From Candidatus Woesearchaeota archaeon (GTDB lineage: Archaea > Nanobdellota > Nanobdellia > Woesearchaeales > JAFGPW01): a DNA stretch of 64,000 bases. A program made the translations under genes and the position numbers. Location of the stretch: positions 62,001 to 126,000 of the forward strand of contig JAFGPW010000008.1 of assembly GCA_016935985.1 (NCBI GenBank), in the 5' to 3' direction. Positions 1,052 to 18,540 of this stretch are shown here, piece after piece (within the stretch, counting starts at the first letter, position 1; the number at the start of each line of letters is the position of its first letter). Under the pieces are notes generated by a model. The model did no database searches, was not told the origin of the DNA, and saw nothing but the letters and a program-made list of their open reading frames with translations.

Positions 1052-2156
1052 GCAGGGGTGGGGCACTGGCCGCGATCCGCTTGTTCTGCTCGTCGACACT
1101 GAACACATCGCCGAGGAACTGCCCGATGACGTAGCGGTTCGACCTGAGATGGTCCGTCATCCGGGGGACCGTGTAGGCGCCGCCGAAGAGCGCGAGGTAC
1201 GGGAGCAGGTTGTCGGCGAGGAAGACGTCGGTCGCCGTGCCGGCATCGATCGCTTCCTTGAGCGTATCCGCGCAGGCGCTGCCCACCTGCTCACCCGGCA
1301 CGCCCCTCTCGCCGAGGGCATCGGCGCCGACGACGATCGGGTCGAGGTGATCGGCGTCGTCATCGCTCGCCGACAGCACCGCCCACGCTGTCGCGACGAC
1401 GCCGGGGCTCGCGGCCTCGGCGTACTGGATGTCGACGGATACCGGGCAGCCGTAACAAAGGCTGTGCCGCAGCGCGCGCGCGGCGCGTTCCGCCACCTCG
1501 CCCGACGCGAGGCTCAGCTCAGCGACGACGCGGCCGCGGATCGCGTGCAGGTGGAGGTCGGTCCGGTCGAGGCGTAGGGGCCTGGGTTCCTGCGATGCTT
1601 CCTCAGGCCCGTGCCTGCGGGGCCTGACGGTCGCGACGACCCTTCCCCCACCTTTCGGGAAGAAGCCGCGGCGTTCGATAACGATGTCGACCTCGGCCCA
1701 GCGCCGGAGGTGCGGGACCAGCACGTTCGCGAGGTAGTCGGCTGGCATCGACCACGCGACATCCGTCCCCCCGGTCACCGTGAACCTGAAGCCCCTCCTC
1801 GCCTTCGTGTCCTGTGCGCATATCGCGATCGCGGGGATGAGCAGCGACTGCAGGAGCAGGGTGACCGACCCTGCGGTCCCGATGGCGAACTCGTAGCTGC
1901 CCTTCCGCATGCGACCCGGCCTGAACACGAGCCGTTCCGATCCGATTGCCGCGCCCTCGATCTCCGCGCCGCAGAGCAGCCGGTACGCCTCGACCGTCGC
2001 CAGGTGCTGGGCGGCAAGGCCAGTCTTCGGGCGGTTGTGCCTGATGTTCTCGACGATGATCGGCGACCCGCTCAGCGCAGAGAACGCGAGCGCGGTCCTG
2101 AGGATCTGGCCGCCGCCTTCGCCGTACGAGCCGTCGAGTACGAGGTATTCCTCCAT
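1017..2156 (-). CDS. rtcA: RNA 3'-terminal phosphate cyclase
   Basis: RtcA converts RNA 3'-phosphate ends to 2',3'-cyclic phosphates with ATP, through an enzyme-AMP intermediate. The N-terminus carries the family hallmark GSYGEGGGQILRTA (residues about 9-22), followed by the conserved RHNRPKTGL and a Gly-rich TGGTDV segment, over the expected length (379 aa). The catalytic His region lies in the C-terminal third (LLPYLAL). A TATA element lies 27 nt before the ATG, so a leaderless transcript is likely. The last 35 nt overlap the convergent coiled-coil gene, and the C-terminal tail after about residue 360 (TGAARGPGRS) is probably non-conserved. The neighbouring nuclease-like gene is divergent. 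Confidence 0.93.
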   Translation of the reverse strand: MEEYLVLDGSYGEGGGQILRTALAFSALSGSPIIVENIRHNRPKTGLAAQHLATVEAYRLLCGAEIEGAAIGSERLVFRPGRMRKGSYEFAIGTAGSVTLLLQSLLIPAIAICAQDTKARRGFRFTVTGGTDVAWSMPADYLANVLVPHLRRWAEVDIVIERRGFFPKGGGRVVATVRPRRHGPEEASQEPRPLRLDRTDLHLHAIRGRVVAELSLASGEVAERAARALRHSLCYGCPVSVDIQYAEAASPGVVATAWAVLSASDDDADHLDPIVVGADALGERGVPGEQVGSACADTLKEAIDAGTATDVFLADNLLPYLALFGGAYTVPRMTDHLRSNRYVIGQFLGDVFSVDEQNKRIAASAPPLLTGAARGPGRS

Positions 2157-12403: not shown

Positions 12404-13099
12404 ATGGCCCTCCCACCTGCGCTCCCGATGCCCATGCCCGGGCCGATGATGCATGACCCGCTCGCCCTGAGCATGGACCTCGTCTACACCGCCATCATCT
12501 TCGTGCTCTCGATCGTCATCTTCCTGCGCACGCATGAGCTCTACGACCTCACCAAGCACAAGGGGATCGGCTACCTCAGGCAGGCGTTCCTGCTCTTCGG
12601 GCTCGCGTACGCCTTCCGCTTCCTCTTCCGGCTGATATCGGTCACCGGGCTGCAGCACGAGCTCTACCTGCCGCGCCAGCTCTTCCATCCCACGATGTTC
12701 GCCGTGATGGGCGTGCTCTCGACGCTCGCGCTCTTCTACCTCGCCTACAGCACCGGCAGGTTCAGGATGCGGCATGGCCATTTCCTCATGCTCTCTGTCG
12801 GCGTCTCGGTCGCGGTATCGGCAATCGCGTTCCTGACCCGGTCGCCGTTCCTCGTCTTCCTCTTCGAGCTCGCGCTCGTCGTGGCGATGATCGTCGGCAT
12901 CATGGTGAAAGGGGATGACGGGCACCGGCGCAGCCACGCCCGCCCCCTCTACCTGCTGATCGCTCTCTTCTGGCTGCTCAACCTGGTCGTGATCGGCCCG
13001 CTGCGCTGGGTGCCGGCATGGGCGGAAGCGATCCTCTTCGCGCTCTCGCTCGGGGTGTTCTTCGTGATATACTCCCGAGTGCACAAGTGGACACGATGA
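12404..13099 (+). CDS. Polytopic membrane protein, about seven TM segments
   Basis: The 231 aa protein has a Pro/Met-rich N-terminus and about seven hydrophobic segments (for example VYTAIIFVLSIVIFLR, LLFGLAYAFRFLFRL, FAVMGVLSTLALFYLAY, VSVAVSAIAFL, FELALVVAMIVGIMV). A leaderless promoter precedes it. Its stop overlaps the next gene's ATG as ATGA, which couples its translation to a winged-helix regulator. I do not recognise a family; a sensor or signal-transducing membrane partner of that regulator is possible. Confidence 0.75.
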   Translation: MALPPALPMPMPGPMMHDPLALSMDLVYTAIIFVLSIVIFLRTHELYDLTKHKGIGYLRQAFLLFGLAYAFRFLFRLISVTGLQHELYLPRQLFHPTMFAVMGVLSTLALFYLAYSTGRFRMRHGHFLMLSVGVSVAVSAIAFLTRSPFLVFLFELALVVAMIVGIMVKGDDGHRRSHARPLYLLIALFWLLNLVVIGPLRWVPAWAEAILFALSLGVFFVIYSRVHKWTR

Positions 13100-13374
13100 C
13101 GACACGCAAGCGGGACCGGCTGGAGGTGATCCATGACATCCTCAGGATAGTCCGGGACCATAGCAACTCGATCAAGCCCACCCCGTTGCTCCGCTACTCC
13201 AACCTCTCCTCACGGAGCTTTTCCGAGTACCACGCCGAACTCCTCGCCAAGGGCCTCATCAAGGAGATGGAGGGCCGGAAAGGGAGGAAATACATCACCC
13301 TCACCGACAAGGGCTTCCGGTTCCTCGAACGCTACCACATGATCCTCGGTTTCATCGAGGACTTCGACCTCTGA
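13096..13374 (+). CDS. Small winged-helix transcriptional regulator
   Basis: The ATG at 13096 overlaps the previous stop (ATGA); longer in-frame starts lie inside the upstream gene. The 92 aa protein resembles the archaeal COG3432-type regulators, in which a helix (RLEVIHDILRIVRDH), a second helix (KPTPLLRYSNLSSRSFSEY) and a wing (KGLIKEMEGRKGRKYITLTD) are followed by a C-terminal helix. It is translationally coupled to the membrane protein, so the pair may form a signalling unit. Target genes are unknown. Confidence 0.82.
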   Translation: MTTRKRDRLEVIHDILRIVRDHSNSIKPTPLLRYSNLSSRSFSEYHAELLAKGLIKEMEGRKGRKYITLTDKGFRFLERYHMILGFIEDFDL

Positions 13375-13388
13375 GCCATCCCCTGATC

Positions 13389-13507
13389 GGCGTCGGCAGG
13401 AACGCCAGTCGTCGCCGGAATGCGGCGCCGCGAGACCTCATCTCCCCGCAAGGTCGAGCATCCGCGGCGACGATGAGCCGTGGGCGAATGGGGCTTCCGC
13501 CGACGCC
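13389..13507. ncRNA. Strongly structured intergenic element, candidate ncRNA
   Basis: Arms 13389-13402 and 13495-13507 pair over 13 bp with one bulged base (GGCGTCGGC-A-GGAA with TTCCGCCGACGCC). Inside, 13409-13417 pairs perfectly with 13465-13473 (9 bp), 13420-13423 with 13458-13461, and 13434-13438 with 13451-13455 around a 12-nt loop. The whole forms a long imperfect hairpin of 119 nt. The strand is undecided: a minus-strand transcript could start about 26 nt from the shared TATTTAAA at 13524-13531. It does not match 5S rRNA, tRNA or SRP patterns I know. It could also be a 3' UTR or transcription-control structure. Confidence 0.4.
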
Positions 13508-13554: not shown

Positions 13555-14214
13555 ATGCGCGGAAAATGGCATGAGCGCCGGAACTGGGGGACGACCCTGA
13601 AGCGGGTCTGGAAGTTCCTGTGGGAGGACGATTCCATCTGGAGCTGGATCACTTCCATCGCCGTCGCGTTCGTGATCATCAAGTTCATCGTCTACCCCGG
13701 ACTCGGGCTCGCGCTCGGGACCACGCACCCGATCGTCGCCGTCGTCTCGGGCAGCATGGAGCACGACGGCTCGTTCGAGGACTGGTGGGGATCGCCAGCC
13801 GAATGCGAGGCGGGCAGGTGCAGCCAGCGCGACTGGTACCTCGAGCACGGCATCCTGGATGAGGAATTCAAGGGGTACGACTTCCCCAACGGCTTTGACA
13901 CCGGTGACATCATGCTCCTCACCAAAGGGGATCCGGCCGAGCTCGAGCGCGGCGACATCGTCGTCTTCTACAATCGGCAGGGCACTCCCATCATCCACCG
14001 TGTGATACGGAAGTGGCAGGCGGTCGACACCTGGTACTTCCAGACCAAAGGAGACCACAACATACAGTCCATAAGCAACCGGGACCTCAATGAGTTCCAG
14101 GTGAACGGGAACATGATCATCGGCAGGGCGAGGCTCAGGGTGCCGCTGCTCGGCTATGTCAAGATCTGGTTCGTCGACCTGCTCAAGCTCGCAGGCCTCT
14201 ACCGGGGTGAGTGA
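13555..14214 (+). CDS. Archaeal signal peptidase I (S26)
   Basis: The ATG at 13555 is picked by the TATA spacing; it gives a basic N-terminus and one TM (about 29-58). The catalytic Ser is in VVSGSM (S67). The archaeal/ER-type His is in PIIHRV near residue 147, and the Asp region is TKGDHN. The enzyme cleaves signal peptides of exported proteins at the outer membrane face. A 40-residue insertion after SMEHDG with two Cys (CEAGRC) and the GFDTGDIMLL block resembles DPANN homologues as I remember them. It is followed by TFS with overlapping codons. Confidence 0.92.
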   Translation: MRGKWHERRNWGTTLKRVWKFLWEDDSIWSWITSIAVAFVIIKFIVYPGLGLALGTTHPIVAVVSGSMEHDGSFEDWWGSPAECEAGRCSQRDWYLEHGILDEEFKGYDFPNGFDTGDIMLLTKGDPAELERGDIVVFYNRQGTPIIHRVIRKWQAVDTWYFQTKGDHNIQSISNRDLNEFQVNGNMIIGRARLRVPLLGYVKIWFVDLLKLAGLYRGE

Positions 14215-16885: not shown

Positions 16886-17347
16886 TCATATCTGTCTGAG
16901 TATCTCTTCCCGCAGCTTCTTTGTATACAAGGTGAATTGCAGTTCGGCGCGTTTCCAGTCCTCATGGCTGACCGGCGTGCCGTAGTAATGTATGCCGTTC
17001 CGTTTGGTCCGTACCGTCTCGAAGAACTCCCAGCTGAATTCGAGTCCAGGATGCTTCTCGGTCAGATAGGCGAACAGGCATTGGTGATTGTCGATCTTGA
17101 TCCGTTCGAGCCGCAGCAAGGCCTCGGCCAGCTCATGCAACGCATCATACATCAGCTTATACACGCCGTTCCATCGGATGTCCTTCTTCGGGAGAGCCCT
17201 CTTGAGGGTCAGTGCTGCCTGTATGTCGCCCTCGGCGATGGCAAGCGTCGCCTTGACCTTTTCGATGTCGACCTCTTCGGTGACGATGAACCGCCCCTCC
17301 TTCCTGCATTTCAGGAACGCCTCTCTCCGTGTCAGGTATTCAGGCAT
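16886..17347 (-). CDS. HEPN-domain toxin-like protein
   Basis: The 153 aa all-helical protein contains ALHELAEALLRLERIK and the HEPN-type motif RTKRNGIHYYG (R-x6-H) near residue 115, which in this class forms the RNase active site. It is the downstream partner of the MNT nucleotidyltransferase gene and overlaps it by 8 nt. MNT-HEPN modules are known toxin-antitoxin systems in which HEPN is the RNase and MNT the antitoxin. Function here is inferred from motif and pairing. Confidence 0.82.
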   Translation of the reverse strand: MPEYLTRREAFLKCRKEGRFIVTEEVDIEKVKATLAIAEGDIQAALTLKRALPKKDIRWNGVYKLMYDALHELAEALLRLERIKIDNHQCLFAYLTEKHPGLEFSWEFFETVRTKRNGIHYYGTPVSHEDWKRAELQFTLYTKKLREEILRQI

Positions 17348-17888
17348 GGATGCTCACCTGCGCAAGGGGCAGCTCGCCCTTGATGCGGCTCCCTTTGAGT
17401 ATGTTCCTGATCAGCCCTTCGCCCATCCTCTCCAGCTCGCTCTCGTCCTGGCAGACGAATACCTGTATCTCCCGTTTGAGTTTCGTCTCGAATTCCGCGA
17501 GGCGTAAGCCGGTGGGTTTCCCGTAGATGAAGAGGTCGATGTCGCTTCCCGAATACCAGTCTGAGCGTGAGAAGCTCCCGAACACTATTACGGTCTTCGC
17601 TTCTTCCAAGGAAGAAAGGTGATTGAGCAAGCCGCTCGCATAGAGCTGGTTGAGCGCGAATATCCTCTTCCTGTTCATGTATGCAGGCGACCCGTTCCTA
17701 CTCACATAATAGGGCATCGCGCCTGCATGCTTGACCCTCCTGATCAGCCCCTCCTTGATGAACCGCTTGAGCCAGCGGTCGGCCTTGCTCCGTGAGATGC
17801 CTGCCTCTTTGAGGATCTCTGAGAAATGGAGTTCCCTCGTGGGGTTATTGAAGAATAGCCCGAGCATCCGCTCCTCTTTGCTGTCCAT
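17340..17888 (-). CDS. MNT nucleotidyltransferase with N-terminal winged helix
   Basis: The start at 17888 fits a TATA box (AATATTTAAA, 17911-17920) 27 nt upstream; an ATG at 17900 is too close to it. The N-terminal winged helix (LHFSEILKEAGISRSKADRW) is followed by the minimal nucleotidyltransferase signature GSFSRSDWYSGSDIDLF (G-S-x10-D-x-D) near residues 100-120. It is the presumed antitoxin of the MNT-HEPN pair, adding nucleotides (AMP) to HEPN in related systems. The HTH probably autoregulates the operon. Confidence 0.85.
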   Translation of the reverse strand: MDSKEERMLGLFFNNPTRELHFSEILKEAGISRSKADRWLKRFIKEGLIRRVKHAGAMPYYVSRNGSPAYMNRKRIFALNQLYASGLLNHLSSLEEAKTVIVFGSFSRSDWYSGSDIDLFIYGKPTGLRLAEFETKLKREIQVFVCQDESELERMGEGLIRNILKGSRIKGELPLAQVSIHA

Positions 17889-17951
17889 AATAGTTTCCAT
17901 AATAGGAACTAATATTTAAATCTTTCCGTACGATCGCTGGAGGTCCTGCGG

Positions 17952-18485
17952 TTATTGCGTGTCCCGCTCCCGGATGCCCGTTCCCGTGAGAGCGGCGCTC
18001 CCTGGTCGCCGTGGTATCCGAGACCACAGCTTATCATCCCAACCCGCACCCTCTTCGCTCTCATTCGTAACAACCGTGGAGCTTCCGAGGTGGTCGCCAT
18101 GAATGAAAAGCTTGCTGCCGTCCGGGTTGACCTGCGCTACCAACTGCCCTTCGTGGTAGACATAGGTGAAATTATATGATCCGGTGGCGTTGACGACGTG
18201 CACGTAGTTCTCGTCGATGTAGTAGACGCTCTCGACCCAGCCGTTCTCATCGTAGGTCTTTTTCACGAGGACTCGTTCTTCGAGTGGGTGGTAGGTGTGT
18301 TCCTGGAGGAGGGTGCCTTCGGCATCGCTTTCGTTGTAGACCTTCCAGAGCTGGTTCAATGAATTGTAGACACGATACCTGCCATCACCGCTCACCAGGT
18401 TGCGGTTCGCGTCGTACACGAGCGAGAGCTCGTCGGCGAAGCAGATCGGGAGGGATATGACGATGGCTATCATGAAGAACGTCAT
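17952..18485 (-). pseudogene. RHS/YD-repeat protein fragment
   Basis: The start at 18485 gives a signal peptide (MTFFMIAIVISLPICFA) and then YD-repeat-type sequence (LSLVYDANRNLVSGDGRYRV, then ESVYYIDENYVHVVN). It ends in the conserved RHS core piece GDHLGSSTVVTNES. Normal RHS proteins continue past this with a TxYxPFG core, but here the sequence diverges into an unrelated basic tail and stops. The piece is therefore a truncated remnant, though a short functional secreted form cannot be excluded. It sits between two MNT-HEPN modules. Confidence 0.7.
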
Positions 18486-18521
18486 GGTCCGGACAGGACG
18501 GCATGATCCCAATAGCGATCG

Positions 18522-18540
18522 CACCCCCGGAACGGGGGTG
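18522..18540. repeat. Perfect GC-rich hairpin CACCCCCG-GAA-CGGGGGTG
   Basis: An 8-bp perfect inverted repeat with a 3-nt spacer lies upstream of the RHS fragment. It could be a terminator, a transposon-end remnant or a regulatory stem. No TA duplication is evident nearby. Confidence 0.6.

Follow-up and report, generated by a model that had tools for sequence, protein, structure and literature searches.

A nine-copy family of structured intergenic elements in an archaeal genome

Small archaeal genomes are thought to be poor in non-coding structured sequence. In bacterial genomes, families of stem-loop repeats have been described that are dispersed between genes, share a common secondary structure and possibly act as RNA (Cozzuto et al. 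2008, PMC2267715). MITEs carry terminal inverted repeats (TIRs) together with a direct repeat, as exemplified by QMITE2 of Coxiella burnetii (PMC10969869), and REPs are 20–40 bp long (PMC3733652). Integrons with attC sites also exist in archaea (PMC9668308).

The window analyzed here is a 64,000-nucleotide stretch (contig C9:62001–126000) of a 1.4-Mb archaeal genome, identified as archaeal from the type of its signal peptidase, from L44e, S27e and aIF5A, and from an archaeal 16S rRNA. The element at positions 13389–13507 of this window is one of nine dispersed copies of an undescribed structured repeat family that also has a relative on a bacterial-type contig, a larger finding than the single intergenic RNA candidate reported in the initial annotation.

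A nine-copy family and a relative outside the genome

Folding of positions 13389–13507 gives a minimum free energy of −66.1 kcal/mol for the plus strand (z −3.38, 1 of 200 shuffles as good, shuffle mean −53.3) and of −65.8 kcal/mol for the minus strand (z −3.18, 0 of 200 shuffles as good, shuffle mean −54.2). The element is thus far more stable than its shuffled controls, with a z score of about −3.3, as its description as highly structured had implied. Inverted-repeat search and folding likewise bear out the coordinates and stems named in that description: the 9-bp arms 13409–13417/13465–13473 show 100% complementarity, and an outer pair of 30 nt (13389–13418/13478–13507) shows 73%. The location between two genes also stands, wherein the winged-helix gene stops at 13374, 15 nt from the element, and the signal peptidase ATG lies at 13555. 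Both flanking genes are on the plus strand, and the core of the element is read from the minus strand.

A blastn comparison of this sequence with its own genome revealed three further partial copies. Covariance model R1, made from those four sequences, recovered more copies and was rebuilt twice (R2 and R3). Searching the genome with R3 yields nine copies of a core of ~70 nt that score 49–83 bits, and the next best match scores 19 bits. In addition to the window copy (L006), these are L005 and L007 on contig C7, L008 and L010 on C4, L009 on C2, L011 on C6, and L013 and L017 on C9. All nine are intergenic, and the genome holds multiple non-coding copies, as is expected of a MITE; terminal inverted repeats common to the copies, another mark of MITEs, were not found. 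The elements measure ~85–125 nt, and identity between archaeal cores is 0.58–0.84. Their borders are sharp, wherein core identity between copies reaches 84% and the outer stems are unrelated yet paired. Very stable folds are formed by L013 (z −4.4) and by L036 (z −5.8), the copy from outside the genome. Three copies appear decayed, namely L008 with its internal duplication, and L011 and L017, which have no outer stem. The duplication in L008 (1501–1585, minus strand) is a near-perfect direct repeat, GATGAGGTCTCRCGA, located in the core's conserved 3′ half. The weak matches L012, L020, L021, L029–L031 and L037 were set aside as sequences in or resembling coding sequence and without the conserved loops.

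Only one other copy, L036 (64.9 bits, E 1.6e-11), was found among 352 genomes of the order, and a phylum sample held no further copy. When viral contigs, phages, plasmids and E. coli were searched by pattern and by blastn, chance matches alone turned up, and a pattern scan of 85k species genomes returned seven stretches, none with a convincing full-model match. The contig that bears L036 is 3.9 kb long and belongs to an archaeal MAG whose contamination is 5%. Because it carries genes for BolA and for a monothiol glutaredoxin with proteobacterial proteins as its best plasmid-borne relatives (~50% identity), this contig is probably a bacterial contaminant. At L036:1460–1600, 15-bp inverted repeats (GGCTTTGTAGAAACC/GGTTTCTACAGAGCC) are located inside an 8-bp direct repeat (CTATTACA), and by analogy with described elements L036 is probably a MITE. 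The 8-bp repeat occurs in L036 only, and no target-site duplication was seen at archaeal copies L005, L006, L007, L010 and L013. The identity of the L036 core to the archaeal copies (0.54–0.72) is close to the range among those copies, which suggests, at the level of sequence, horizontal transfer of the element.

The conserved hairpin and its outer stem

As read on the minus strand, the predicted structure of the core is an irregular hairpin (P1-P2-P2a-P3) with bulges on its 3′ side (Table 1). P1 (7 bp) is followed by a 5-nt 3′-side bulge, P2 (4 bp), a 3′-side bulge of 2–3 nt and P2a (3 bp), beyond which a UC/UC internal loop leads to P3 (5 bp), capped by a loop with GAUG at its end. Three segments are conserved yet unpaired: the UC/UC between P2a and P3, the GAUG of the loop, and UCGCC immediately before P1. 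A K-loop in P3 was considered and rejected, as GA is absent from the P3 5′ strand. A pseudoknot between loop and linker (CUCAUC/GAUGAG) was also discarded, given that it pairs in L005 and L006 and not in L007, L009 and L010.

Table 1. Features of the window copy and its flanks (window coordinates)
Feature	Position	Strand	Remarks
P0 5′ strand, GGCGUCGGCGGAAGCCCCA	13489..13507	−	Sequence unique to window copy; best helix in the flanks, equaled at 0.1% of random positions
P0 3′ strand, UGGCGUUCCUGCCGACGCC	13389..13407	−	Folding, inverted-repeat search, flank-helix test
Conserved core, 69 nt	13408..13476	−	Best family match to models R2 and R3; R3 83.4 bits, E 1.1e-15 in own genome
P1 5′ strand, CGUCGCC	13466..13472	−	Pairs with 13410–13416; both sides altered at 4 of 7 pairs in the 10-copy set
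P1 3′ strand, GGCGACG	13410..13416	−	Partner of 13466–13472
P2 5′ strand, GCGG	13462..13465	−	Pairs with 13422–13425 (CCGC)
P2 3′ strand, CCGC	13422..13425	−	Followed by 5-nt 3′-side bulge 13417–13421
P2a 5′ strand, UGC	13458..13460	−	Pairs with GCG 13429–13431; found independently by RNAalifold
P2a 3′ strand, GCG	13429..13431	−	Partner of 13458–13460
P3 5′ strand, GACCU	13451..13455	−	Pairs with AGGUC 13434–13438; 4 of 5 pairs changed on both sides (columns 24–28 with 47–51)
P3 3′ strand, AGGUC	13434..13438	−	Preceded by conserved loop sequence GAUG
TATA-like TTTAAATA/TATTTAAA	13524..13531	No strand assigned	Sequence
HTH_45 winged-helix protein gene (upstream flank)	13096..13374	+	Pfam PF14947, E 3.9e-12
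Archaeal signal peptidase I gene (downstream flank)	13555..14214	+	TIGR02228, 69 bits (cut-off 52)

Alignment A7, from which R3 was built, comprises ten sequences, namely the nine archaeal copies and L036. Compensatory changes, in which both sides of a pair are altered, are present at 11 of its 19 base pairs, as is expected of a structured non-coding RNA. Standard pairs make up 91.4% of the 187 pair cells, and these values are approached by 0 of 500 shuffles and by no register slide. A7 was fitted to the model and hence leans towards the structure of that model. RNAalifold, which was supplied with no structure, gives the same helices and also P2a. This last stem was absent from the models behind A7 and still covaries, wherein CUGC/GCGG becomes CUAC/GUUG in L036 and CUGU/ACGA in L009 (pair changes G-C to A-U and C-G to U-A); in the same two copies P2 is GUGG/CCAC. 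The initial annotation had proposed that covariation be sought for its two named stems. Among the relatives within the genome, the expectation of covariation is borne out, and the strongest part is the inner hairpin (13410–13472) rather than the 13-bp terminal stem. Evolution has preserved this fold while the sequence changed, and the element is real and probably either mobile or active as RNA. A chance fold of GC-rich intergenic DNA might have been suspected, given that high G+C inflates the folding energy and that even the shuffles have means of −53 to −54 kcal/mol. With compensatory changes across nine independent copies, that explanation has practically no room, and we consider it refuted because of the covariation among copies.

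The 13-bp terminal stem corresponds to P0, which closes the core in about 7 of 10 copies, with sequences that are unrelated from copy to copy. Inverted flanks lie directly outside the core in L005, L007, L010, L013 and L036, and weaker ones in L009; the outer stem of L013 was read by eye from the sequence and then folded. Random positions pair as well as P0 in ≤0.1% of cases for L006 and L036, <1% for L005 and L010, and ~3% for L007 and L009, and the same flank-helix test finds no P0 in L008, L011 and L017. Two readings fit these data: P0 may be a clamp stem in which pairing alone is constrained, or the core may have been inserted into existing palindromes.

Strand, neighboring genes and competing readings

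Mismatches within the helices lean towards the minus strand (11 G·U versus 3 A·C), a difference that is not significant (p 0.057) and that becomes 6 to 3 when one column is omitted. In five of the nine archaeal copies, ≥7 consecutive A/T nucleotides precede the 5′ end at the spacing of a promoter, versus a 24% intergenic background; this excess is marginal, and such boxes often serve a divergent gene. The five copies, with a TATA-like run at archaeal spacing, are L005, L006, L007, L013 and L017, and L036 has TATACT 7 nt upstream of the element. In the window, the palindromic TTTAAATA/TATTTAAA precedes the outer stem by 16 nt when read on the minus strand and the signal peptidase ATG by 23 nt on the plus strand. 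It could serve that gene, the element or both, and because of its distance from the ATG it may simply be the promoter of the signal peptidase gene.

The nine copies have diverse neighbors. L008 is between L44e and S27e, L013 is between aIF5A and fructose-6-phosphate aldolase, and L010 is upstream of 16S rRNA. L011 precedes L1, L017 precedes aIF2, L005 precedes an EF-Tu-domain protein, L007 precedes an archaellum-ATPase-like protein, and L009 adjoins Fur-type and HTH_45 genes. Translation genes seem frequent, lying beside copies L008, L010, L011, L013 and L017; the adjacency could be functional or could stem from a bias inherent in long intergenic regions. A pair of genes for a membrane protein and an HTH_45 protein occurs twice in the genome, at 12404–13374 of the window and at L009 (C2:73677–74157), and each pair has an antisense copy of the element past its 3′ end, 15 and ~135 nt away, respectively. 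A fixed association of the element with the HTH_45 gene was considered and rejected, as the element is present at two of three paralogs and the third (C6:72666) is without it. Upstream of the 16S rRNA gene near L010, Rfam models identify two intron-length tRNA genes (985–1106 and 1266–1382, minus strand) of 117–122 nt, both of which are missed by ARAGORN in its bacterial setting. Elsewhere on the minus strand of the window (16886–18524), the gene for an HTH-bearing nucleotidyltransferase (PF01909) overlaps that for a small protein of 153 aa in a layout like that of MNT/HEPN toxin-antitoxin systems. A 190-aa protein beside this pair has no Pfam match and by eye resembles the C-terminal core of RHS-repeat proteins.

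The reading that we favor, albeit tentatively, is that the copies constitute a new family of dispersed, structured, non-autonomous MITE-like repeats that would act as folded single-stranded nucleic acid. The family may have spread as a non-autonomous element, possibly crossing between bacteria and archaea, and a partner protein, which moves or exploits the element, would recognize it as a folded single strand. The recognized strand is more likely to be RNA than DNA, and the minus rather than the plus strand, towards which the G·U mismatches lean. Consistent with a MITE-like origin are the nine clear intergenic copies with their large score gap, the absence of the family from relatives, the covariation and its recovery by RNAalifold, the sharp borders between similar cores and unrelated outer stems, the TIRs of L036 within a direct repeat, and the decayed look of some copies. 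However, a normal MITE family has common termini, whereas the archaeal outer stems are mutually unrelated and lack a target-site duplication, and the genome has no Y1 transposase. Moreover, pairing kept at 54–84% identity could equally mean that each copy is a working RNA gene. The main rival to the MITE-like origin, although we regard it as rather unlikely, is that the copies are independent genes for small non-coding RNAs, each with its own promoter and an RNA that starts at the outer stem. P0 would clamp the ends of this RNA and the conserved hairpin would bind a protein or target; the copies would derive from old duplications, and selection would act on the pairing of P0 alone, leaving its sequence free to drift, as in riboswitch P1 stems. 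The covariation, the TATA-like runs in several copies and ahead of L036, the paired P0 of most copies and the very stable folds of L013 and L036 agree with RNA genes. However, the promoter-like runs are only marginally enriched and could equally belong to divergent genes, no obvious promoter is seen at L008 and L011, each of which closely follows a same-strand gene, and a patchy distribution with decayed copies is ill-suited to an essential RNA. Also rather unlikely is a new class of transferable structured RNA, multi-copy in one archaeon and found in a bacterium at least once, wherein each copy would have a host-suited promoter, an exchangeable clamp stem and a protein-binding hairpin.

Elements that act in cis on neighboring genes, as 5′-leader regulators, processing sites or terminators/insulators, form an improbable alternative. 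Seven of the nine copies share their strand with the next gene downstream, L007 is directly before a start codon with no promoter between, and many neighbors are the translation genes listed above. Nevertheless, a leader function is disfavored because most copies have a TATA-like box between themselves and the downstream gene. In the window and at L009 the element is antisense to the 3′ end of the flanking gene, and the neighboring genes have no common function. The terminator-like role raised in the initial annotation was abandoned: no stem-loop followed by a U tract is found on either strand, which rejects an intrinsic terminator, and orientation relative to genes varies. Still less credible is a DNA site without RNA function, such as a cruciform, hairpin or protein-binding site of the integron attC or recombination type. 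The bulges all lie on one side of the hairpin, the copies are intergenic and common to both domains, and archaeal integrons with attC are known, as cited above. Against this, the weak G·U lean favors a single RNA strand, the P1 arms read GTYGCC...GGCRAC rather than the outward AAC...GTT of attC, there is no cassette array, and the copies stand singly between unrelated housekeeping genes. An integron attC site was rejected on the last three grounds. A covariation-supported, nine-copy element that is missing from Rfam and apparently common to a bacterium would be a mobile hairpin or a small-RNA family, new in either case, and the ten-copy alignment and covariance model make both readings directly testable.

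Comparison with known systems

The initial annotation recognized no RNA class, and this assessment has held for an element whose conserved structure is now supported by covariation. Rfam gives no match in the window and only rRNA and tRNA at the copy loci; close-up scans give chance-level matches only, with nothing at a gathering threshold, so a known Rfam class was rejected. The Twister-sister ribozyme (RF02681) scores 13.5 bits (E 2.3), far under its 34-bit gathering score, and was judged a chance match. The match, on the plus strand of the window, does contain CCCGCAAGG.CGA, but it uses a non-conserved flank and is absent from the other copies examined. With archaeal H/ACA and C/D guide RNAs the element shares a size range, a hairpin with internal loops and a conserved GAUG near the apical loop. 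In contrast to these RNAs, it has no paired G·A/A·G K-turn strands, CUGA box or conserved ACA, and its internal loops, being conserved, are unlike the variable guides of those RNAs. Guide RNAs were therefore rejected on anatomy, as read from alignment A7 and the flanks, and Rfam gives no H/ACA match and nothing above threshold.

REP and REPIN elements are also imperfect palindromes scattered between genes, but differ from the archaeal element in size and structure. Y1_Tnp (PF01797) has no match in the genome under conditions where positive controls matched, and a REP/RAYT element was rejected for want of this Y1 (RAYT) transposase. The stem-loop families of Cozzuto et al. resemble the archaeal family in being dispersed and intergenic with a structure in common; no tool used here links it to any of them. 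Those families are bacterial, whereas the present one belongs to an archaeal genome, covaries strongly and has outer stems whose sequences are unrelated from copy to copy. As for MITEs, the family is likewise short, non-coding, multi-copy, intergenic and strongly folding, and L036 has TIRs inside an 8-bp direct repeat. The archaeal copies differ from MITEs in having no common termini or direct repeats: their conserved part is the interior, which is held by compensatory changes.
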